A stretch of DNA of 64,000 nucleotides from Flavobacteriales bacterium (GTDB lineage Bacteria; Bacteroidota; Bacteroidia; Flavobacteriales_F; PHOS-HE28). The notes below the pieces were generated by a model. That model worked only from the letters and a program-made list of their open reading frames with translations, was not told where the DNA came from and searched no databases. The stretch covers positions 1-64,000 of the forward strand of contig JAHBUL010000020.1 in the NCBI GenBank assembly GCA_019638085.1. The letters are read 5' to 3'. Made by a program: the position numbers and the translations under genes. Below, in pieces: positions 8,515 to 15,651 of the stretch (the stretch's first letter is position 1; every line of letters begins with the position of its first letter).

Positions 8515-8662
8515 GCTCATCTTCTTGCTCCATCCCTGTCATTTCGAGCGCTGCCGAGAAAGACAGGGGTGATGCAACTGGATTTAGCACCTGTCCAGCG
8601 GTACACCGCTGTATGGTTGCCAAGGCATCGCAGGGCCAGTCCCTCCGCCTTTCTTGATAAGC
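8515..8662 (-). promoter_or_regulatory. SAM-I (S-box) riboswitch upstream of metH
   Basis: The minus-strand sequence contains the S-box core in order: cttatcaagaaaggcggagg, then gactggccctgcgatgcc, then ttggcaacc, a variable P3 hairpin (cagcggtgtaccgctg), and ggtgctaaatcc. P1 closes as gcttatc (8656-8662) with gatgagc (8515-8521), one G-U pair included. Sensing S-adenosylmethionine upstream of methionine synthase is the classic S-box role: high SAM should favour the terminator at 8447-8476. The hairpin after ggtgctaaatcc is unusually long and contains a dispersed genomic repeat (8538-8572). Confidence 0.92.
8538..8572. repeat. dispersed TCATTTCGAGCGC repeat inside the riboswitch
   Basis: The block ctgtcatttcgagcgctgcc followed by gagaaagacag matches the TCATTTCGA-type intergenic repeat common in Bacteroidota. 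Its ends (ctgtc/gacag) form the stem of the last riboswitch hairpin. Confidence 0.6.
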
Positions 8663-8683
8663 TCAACTTTAAAGAACGAGGGG

Positions 8684-15151: not shown

Positions 15152-15226
15152 GCTACTAAGATATGCGGCATTCCGTTTTACGGATGCGTTTGGGCGCATG
15201 TGGTTTCCGGCATTGAAAAGCTTTGG

Positions 15227-15489
15227 TGGAGAAGGTGGGATTGCGCGAGGCGCGCGTTCCCGGAGGGGGAGGCTTCGATCAGCGACCCGCTGCGCGGATC
15301 CCGCATGAAGACCGAAGGCCGCTTATCCAAGCGAGCTTGGGCGCGGCCTTAATCGGAGAAGGAGGGATTGCGCGAGGCGCGCGTTCCCGGAGGGGGGAGA
15401 CTTCGATCAGCGACCCGCTGCGCGGGTCCCACATGAAAGAGAAAAGCCGCACCTCCAAGCGAGCTTGGGCGCGGCTTTTCTCTTTCATG
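15227..15489. repeat. two tandem units carrying tRNA-Ser 3'-end copies
   Basis: The 16-mer cggagaaggagggatt at 15354-15369 is identical to 15515-15530 of the tRNA gene (acceptor plus T-arm side). A 14/16 copy lies at 15227-15242. Beyond it the two units stay nearly identical for about 70 bases and both contain ccaagcgagcttgggcgcgg within a hairpin (8-bp stem in unit 1, 19-bp in unit 2). Confidence 0.8.
15432..15489 (-). terminator. 19-bp hairpin downstream of tRNA-Ser
   Basis: A perfect 19-bp inverted repeat: 15432-15450 (catgaaagagaaaagccgc) pairs with 15471-15489. The 20-base loop itself folds (ccaag/cttgg). On the minus strand the right arm ends in gcggcttttctctttc, i.e. a T-rich tail, so it can terminate the tRNA transcript. 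Confidence 0.65.
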
Positions 15490-15507
15490 CCCCCGCTTTG
15501 CGGGGGC
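15489..15507 (-). terminator. GC hairpin immediately after tRNA-Ser
   Basis: Stem gcccccg/cgggggc around ctttg, 7 bases downstream of the tRNA 3' end. There is no T-run of its own, so it may act with the larger hairpin that follows or in tRNA 3' processing. Confidence 0.45.
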
Positions 15508-15514
15508 TGATCGG

Positions 15515-15599
15515 CGGAGAAGGAGGGATTCGAACCCCCGTTACCTTTCAGTAAACACACTTTCCAGGCGTGCGCCTTAAACCACTCGGCCACTTCTCC
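15515..15599 (-). tRNA. tRNA-Ser (anticodon GGA)
   Basis: An 85-nt class II tRNA. The acceptor arm ggagaag/cttctcc is followed by discriminator G; the D-arm reads tggccgagtggtttaaggc. The anticodon loop is ctGGAaa (anticodon at 15563-15565 on the complement). A long variable arm (tgtgtttactgaaaggtaac) and the T-arm ggggttcgaatccct complete it. The genomic 3' end continues ccg, so the CCA is not fully encoded. The long variable arm and GGA anticodon assign it to serine UCC/UCU codons. Confidence 0.97.
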
Positions 15600-15651
15600 A
15601 ATTAACCCTATCCGAAGATACGGGGCCGCGAATGTAAACAATGGCCGGGTC

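Follow-up and report, generated by a model that had tools for sequence, protein, structure and literature searches.

Transfer RNA genes are classic landing sites of large islands, and short non-coding palindromic elements such as REP/REPIN are known to need an enzyme, the Y1 transposase RAYT, acting in trans. Integration of tRNA-associated islands leaves one intact and one partial copy of the tRNA as direct repeats (PMC9897764). The closest known case for the units described here is the 178-bp repeat of the tyrT/tyrV locus of E. coli (rttR RNA, tpr; NC_000913), in which tandem units lie 3' of a tRNA gene and each is closed by a copy of its 3' end. A similar array behind a tRNA-Ser(GGA) gene of a Flavobacteriales bacterium was examined in the present analysis. 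The two systems share the T-loop base at which the copies begin (GAGT|AATCCTTCCCCCACC in E. coli), and in the RNAfold structure of the tyrV units the T-stem (GAAGG/CCTTC) is likewise retained, its loop being occupied by a palindrome. However, the E. coli repeat is found at one tRNA-Tyr locus and has no fold of outer stem and hairpins H1, H2 and H3, whereas the units in Bacteroidia are associated with several tRNAs in many genera and show presence/absence turnover. Homology between the two was not supported by a covariance model of the units (R1, see below), which reached at most 8.9 bits on tyrTV; the E. coli repeat is best regarded as an analogue rather than a demonstrated relative.

The units share with tRNA-integrating islands and phages a 3' part of the tRNA present as a direct repeat and a precise empty site in a relative, but they are shorter than 200 bp, carry neither integrase nor cargo and possess a conserved fold of their own. 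Like REP/REPIN sequences the unit at tRNA-Ser is short, non-coding and palindromic; unlike them, the tRNA units are site-specific and not dispersed, strong matches within the same genome being confined to tRNA loci. The genome has two Y1 (RAYT-like) transposase genes, each with REP-like palindromes of its own beside it (L161, G000:C1:301272; L162, G000:C34:180580). Mobilisation of the units by RAYT was rejected, since the palindromes flanking both genes (GCACTCGCGACACGCGAGCGC, CACTCGGCAAAAAGCCGAGC) belong to another family.

The window, i.e. the whole stretch of 64,000 nucleotides analysed, carries the tRNA gene on the minus strand, so that its 3' flank corresponds to positions 15227-15512. 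The features identified at the locus, all on the minus strand, are as follows.

15513..15599, minus strand: intact tRNA-Ser(GGA) (ARAGORN; Rfam RF00005, 58.9 bits)
15516..15530, minus strand: functional T-loop/T-stem/acceptor 3' segment of the tRNA, AATCCCTCCTTCTCC, the proximal of three copies (sequence)
15355..15514, minus strand: unit 1, the full element, which runs from the 3' end of the tRNA through the first distal copy (match to covariance model R1 at 15355-15530, 163.8 bits)
15506..15513, minus strand: 5' strand of the outer stem, CGATCAGC, overlapping the last base of the tRNA call (fold, covariation)
15491..15505, minus strand: hairpin H1, at the terminator position in many relatives, here with no U-tract (fold)
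15431..15490, minus strand: long hairpin H2 with the conserved tip CCAAGCTCGCTTGG (fold, alignment)
15412..15428, minus strand: hairpin H3 with loop C(GCA)G (fold)
15404..15411, minus strand: 3' strand of the outer stem, GCTGATCG (fold, covariation)
15364..15388, minus strand: T-arm mimic, GGGA..palindrome GCGCGCCTCGCGC..TCCC, in which the T-stem is kept and a hairpin replaces the T-loop (fold)
15355..15369, minus strand: first distal copy of the tRNA 3' segment, exact (sequence)
15228..15354, minus strand: unit 2, truncated, beginning near the H2 tip and lacking H1 as well as some of the 5' arm of H2 (covariance model, 86.5 bits)
15228..15242, minus strand: second distal copy, AATCCCACCTTCTCC, with one change over 15 nt (sequence)

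The original prediction had described a 16-mer of the tRNA-Ser 3' end that recurs in the flank, and its coordinates and mismatch counts are correct: exact matches lie at 15354-15369 and 15515-15530, and the site at 15227-15242 carries two changes. The nearly identical block reported after each copy was likewise borne out, a 42-nt block between the copies being 98% identical and the next 86 nt 85% identical. The units had been said to start with the copy; each does carry one, but on the transcribed (minus) strand the copy closes the unit, and the tRNA is followed by one full unit of about 160 bp and one truncated unit of 127 bp. The distal copies start at T-loop base A58 of tRNA-Ser (AATCCC...). 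Over the whole 4.0-Mb genome the exact 16-mer was found at two places only, both at the tRNA-Ser(GGA) locus, while sites with one mismatch were found at tRNA-Ser(CGA), which has repeats of its own, at tRNA-Ser(TGA), which has none, and at one place lacking a tRNA. A generic repeat unrelated to the tRNA, the outcome that had been named as fatal to the prediction, was ruled out by this search together with BLAST of the unit and a scan of genome collections in which tRNA-Ser lies upstream of 20 of the 24 matches. The predicted absence of an integrase also held: the unit is non-coding and below 200 bp, and no tyrosine or serine integrase is present among the neighbours examined, namely Dus, a 77-aa protein with no Pfam match, an asparaginase and an S9 peptidase. 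Elsewhere in the window, a SAM riboswitch was observed at 8533-8663 on the minus strand (Rfam RF00162, 53.2 bits).

The folding of unit 1 is far stronger than expected by chance (z = -8.7 for RNA, -9.0 for DNA); its cloverleaf-like structure has an outer stem around H1, the long H2 and H3, followed by the GGGA-palindrome-TCCC structure that mimics a T-arm. The pairing of this T-stem tracks the host tRNA, being GGGA/TCCC at Ser, AGGA/TCCT at Pro and TGGA/TCCA at Arg. The truncation of unit 2 has parallels in several relatives, where the second and later units of arrays, as read by eye, also begin near the H2 tip. At gathering score the Rfam covariance models matched the unit region by tRNA alone; matches to miRNA families were dismissed as hairpin artefacts below the gathering score, and the RtT RNA family gave no match at E<=1 within 15160-15640 of the window.

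Strong matches to the unit in the same genome, as identified with BLAST, lie only 3' of tRNA-Ser(GGA), tRNA-Ser(CGA) (contig C7) and tRNA-Ser(GCT) (contig C31), and tRNA-Ser(TGA) carries no unit. When the regions flanking the tRNA genes identified by Rfam were scanned, copies of the tRNA's own 3' end were also seen after the Pro(CGG), Pro(GGG), Gly(GCC), Asn and Met tRNAs, and an imperfect one after Leu(GAG). These non-Ser copies are split by a palindrome, which falls in the anticodon region in the Met copy and in the T-loop in the others. Analogous units follow Pro and Leu tRNAs in this genome and an Arg tRNA in a relative.

Among 45 species of the same genus the unit was found with BLAST in 21, and nearly all the loci fetched lie directly 3' of a tRNA-Ser, with all four anticodons represented. 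Orthologous tRNA-Ser(GGA) loci were located through the tRNA itself, the neighbouring gene for the 77-aa protein occurring in only three species; the unit is present at 19 and absent from 9 of the 28 readable loci, and two more were undetermined. Comparison of an occupied locus (L134) with an empty one (L135) shows a 151-bp block placed exactly between GTTCGA and ATCCC, with boundaries at the T-loop and the native terminator and with flanks colinear into the dus gene. The att-like character attributed to the flank in the original prediction is upheld to the extent that such occupied and empty sites differ by one unit bounded at the T-loop and the 3' end of the tRNA; to describe it as repeated duplication is an oversimplification, the unit being a specific structured element that occurs phylum-wide. 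At another locus (L120) a terminator of the native type follows the distal copy, as at the empty loci L126, L119 and L129.

The unit cores turn over between close species. In genomes G000 and G021, in which both loci are syntenic, the units at tRNA-Ser(GGA) are 62% identical and those at tRNA-Ser(CGA) 97% identical, while the GGA unit of G000 is 82% identical to the CGA unit of the same genome; a degraded unit resembling that of the G000 GGA locus persists distally in the GGA array of G021. The nearest neighbours of the cores mix different tRNA-Ser loci. Undegraded terminal copies, on the other hand, match the resident tRNA at bases 2-15 in 20 of 20 loci (permuted mean 7.7, maximum 17), a set picked for undegraded copies, which shows the matching among these and not its frequency, and in which base 1 may be C. 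Judged from these comparisons, the unit cores do not follow locus orthology and the terminal copies match the resident tRNA.

A pattern for the T-arm mimic, GGGANRGCSCGCCTCGSGCAATCCC, run over 84,980 genomes, recovered 24 contig stretches, all of them in metagenome-assembled genomes titled Flavobacteriales or Bacteroidetes bacterium; tRNA-Ser lies directly upstream in 20 of these, and in the other four the match is near a contig end. The covariance model R1, built from 25 units and comprising 39 base pairs, matched 96 of 296 sampled Bacteroidia genomes representing 65 of 164 genera (E<=1e-3) and, at E<=1e-6, 23 of 393 genomes of the phylum, some of them outside Bacteroidia. Forty-nine R1 loci were fetched, two of them from the same genus or genome, and at 42 a tRNA called by ARAGORN (41 Ser, 1 Pro) ends at the start of the match. 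At the remaining loci a contig edge offsets the tRNA (L205), the tRNA is masked (L206, L238), truncated (L225) or read only at its 3' end (L243), or the matched unit is not the first of its array (L217, L245). R1 includes ends derived from tRNA-Ser, which biases its matches towards that tRNA; core-only matches (model positions 18-127), read at L243, L248 and L249, abut the 3' end of a non-Ser tRNA in all three cases. No carriage by viral contigs, phages or plasmids was found: neither the exact T-arm-mimic pattern in viral contigs nor the unit in phages and plasmids gave a match. A different tandem unit follows tRNA-Ser at three loci outside the class (L235; L245 in G550; L239 in G349) and holds an inverted tRNA-like piece (GGGAGGGGTTCGAACCC in G550).

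The predicted pairs covary. In the genus alignment, from which the structure was itself derived, 28 of 39 pairs show double changes, with a covariation score of 0.468 against 0.131 in shuffled alignments. The variable hairpins align poorly in MAFFT, and the tRNA-derived ends were therefore kept in the covariance model. An alignment of 38 matches from outside the genus (A6) gave double changes at 38 of the 39 pairs, 92.6% of cells paired and a score of 0.682, as compared with 0.164 after shuffling and no more than 0.14 in slid controls; these counts lean toward the R1 structure, to which A6 was fitted. With regard to the form in which the fold acts, 53 of 106 perfect triloop hairpins with at least 5 bp have GNA loops, nearly all of them closed by C-G, and many H2 tips are G(CTTG)C or G(CTCG)C loops. 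G(CTTG)C is also a stable RNA tetraloop. Exceptional stability as DNA is described for d(GCGAAGC)-type mini-hairpins (PMC4686876). The loops lean on balance towards action as a DNA strand, though they fall short of proof.

Each unit is probably a copy of a small non-coding element whose target is the T-loop of tRNA genes and whose entry spares the tRNA, an interpretation to which a probability of about 0.6 is assigned. An element of about 130-190 bp would enter tRNA genes, mainly those for tRNA-Ser, at the T-loop, and each copy would have at its borders the part of the tRNA between T-loop base 58 and the 3' end, present as a direct repeat. The upstream tRNA would remain complete, with the old 3' segment, and the native terminator where it survives, displaced downstream. 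The element would fold as a strand into the outer stem with H1 (at the terminator position), the long H2 with its CAAGC-tip and H3, followed by the T-arm mimic in which the host T-stem is kept and a palindrome takes the place of the T-loop. The folded strand may be what is recognised, the cutting may be performed by an enzyme supplied in trans, and new units would enter beside the tRNA, so that arrays would age outward. No enzyme linked to the unit was found, and the evidence for mobility comes from sequence comparison, with no transposition event observed. We infer the polarity, because a unit could also be excised precisely by recombination of the direct repeats around it; gain by insertion, beyond precise loss, is suggested mainly by the core turnover, and the empty sites could also be the product of precise loss.

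Conservation of the fold across the phylum could equally be read as a host RNA function, and the units may instead represent a conserved structured trailer RNA, co-transcribed with tRNA-Ser, acting as a terminator, a processing signal or a decoy for enzymes that recognise the T-arm and acceptor strand, and spread between tRNA-Ser genes by recombination. This explanation is considered unlikely. The strong covariation speaks for it, as do the U-tract after H1 in many relatives, the pairing of H2 with the U-tract in many relatives and the frequent G(CTTG)C or G(CTCG)C loop of the H2 tip; the T-stem side of the distal copy is also kept more than its acceptor part, a bias mostly forced by the search pattern. 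Yet the unit is missing from the nine empty tRNA-Ser(GGA) loci and from tRNA-Ser(TGA) of the same genome, H1 in the window is without a U-tract and no intrinsic terminator (hairpin and U-tract) was found in that region. The turnover of cores between close species and the share of C(GNA)G loops, which make up half of the triloops and represent a motif known to be extraordinarily stable as DNA (PMC4686876), also weigh against it.

Tandem duplication of the tRNA 3' end with its trailer, by slippage or unequal crossing-over and followed by decay, would dispense with an element altogether. Such events would be favoured by the direct repeats, which measure at least 15-20 bp, and tandem near-identical units do exist (L250, L251), but the roughly 130 bp of conserved structured sequence in the first unit is missing from the empty sites and the core is common to unlinked tRNA genes. 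Duplication thus accounts for copy number and not for the origin of the core; it is disfavoured as a full explanation and, taken as one, appears improbable. A derivation of the units from larger integrative elements or phages with tRNA-Ser as their target, whose att scars they would be, is more doubtful still and is regarded as very improbable: the boundary at the T-loop and 3' end resembles that of tRNA-integrating elements, which leave one intact and one partial tRNA copy (PMC9897764), but the same core of 130-190 bp recurs over many genera without larger cargo and has no phage or plasmid match.

A broader proposal, put forward tentatively and at somewhat less than even odds, is that the units belong to an undescribed family of mobile elements found throughout the Bacteroidota. 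Its tiny members would go into tRNA T-loops as folded strands and restore the tRNA end, each new unit being added to the array on the tRNA side; the repeat at tyrT of E. coli would then be an independent or very distant example. No description of the unit family was found in the open-access literature, most subscription papers lying outside the search. If the proposal is true, a non-coding element of less than 200 bp that shares the landing site of the large islands, spares the tRNA and is structurally conserved throughout a phylum would constitute a new sort of genomic parasite, or else a new tRNA-linked RNA, and the tyrT repeats of E. coli would gain a wider frame; its presence and absence in close species makes the question testable.

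Small GIY-YIG genes (about 83-100 aa) were observed at several loci of the genus (L021, L026, L051, L052, L059, L064, L066, L069, L070 and L163-L187). Like the free-standing GIY-YIG homing endonucleases at tRNA genes (SegB of phage T4), they are associated with tRNA loci; each lies between an intact and a partial tRNA copy, of Pro(GGG), Leu(CAA), Leu(TAA), Asn, Met, Val or Ala. They differ from the phage genes in being chromosomal, in having partial copies interrupted by palindromes and in that cleavage is only putative; the unit at tRNA-Ser, moreover, has no ORF, and no GIY-YIG ORF lies within the units of the window. The tRNA-linked arrangement was seen in about 20 of 25 GIY-YIG loci fetched with a profile built from tRNA-linked members, a partly circular count, and the order-level search covered this genus alone. 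In the partial copies, which consist of the 5' half at Leu(CAA) and of the 3' part elsewhere, the D-, anticodon- or T-loop is broken by palindromes. Two of the three small GIY-YIG genes of the genome under study are of the tRNA-linked kind; the third (L041:2865-3152) is flanked by different tandem palindromes (GTCATGGCGGGCTTGACCCGCCATCC) rather than by tRNA. A scan of the unit loci from outside the genus identified four with a GIY-YIG gene near the tRNA (L207, L210, L232, L240). At L207:1500-2060, which belongs to another family, tRNA-Ser(TGA) is followed by a cloverleaf unit and then by a GIY-YIG gene with a partial tRNA-Ser copy stacked beyond. Upstream of the intact tRNA, L170, L176 and L181 also carry copied 5' ends of tRNAs (Pro GGG 1-27, Val TAC 5-30), in tandem at L170 and L176.
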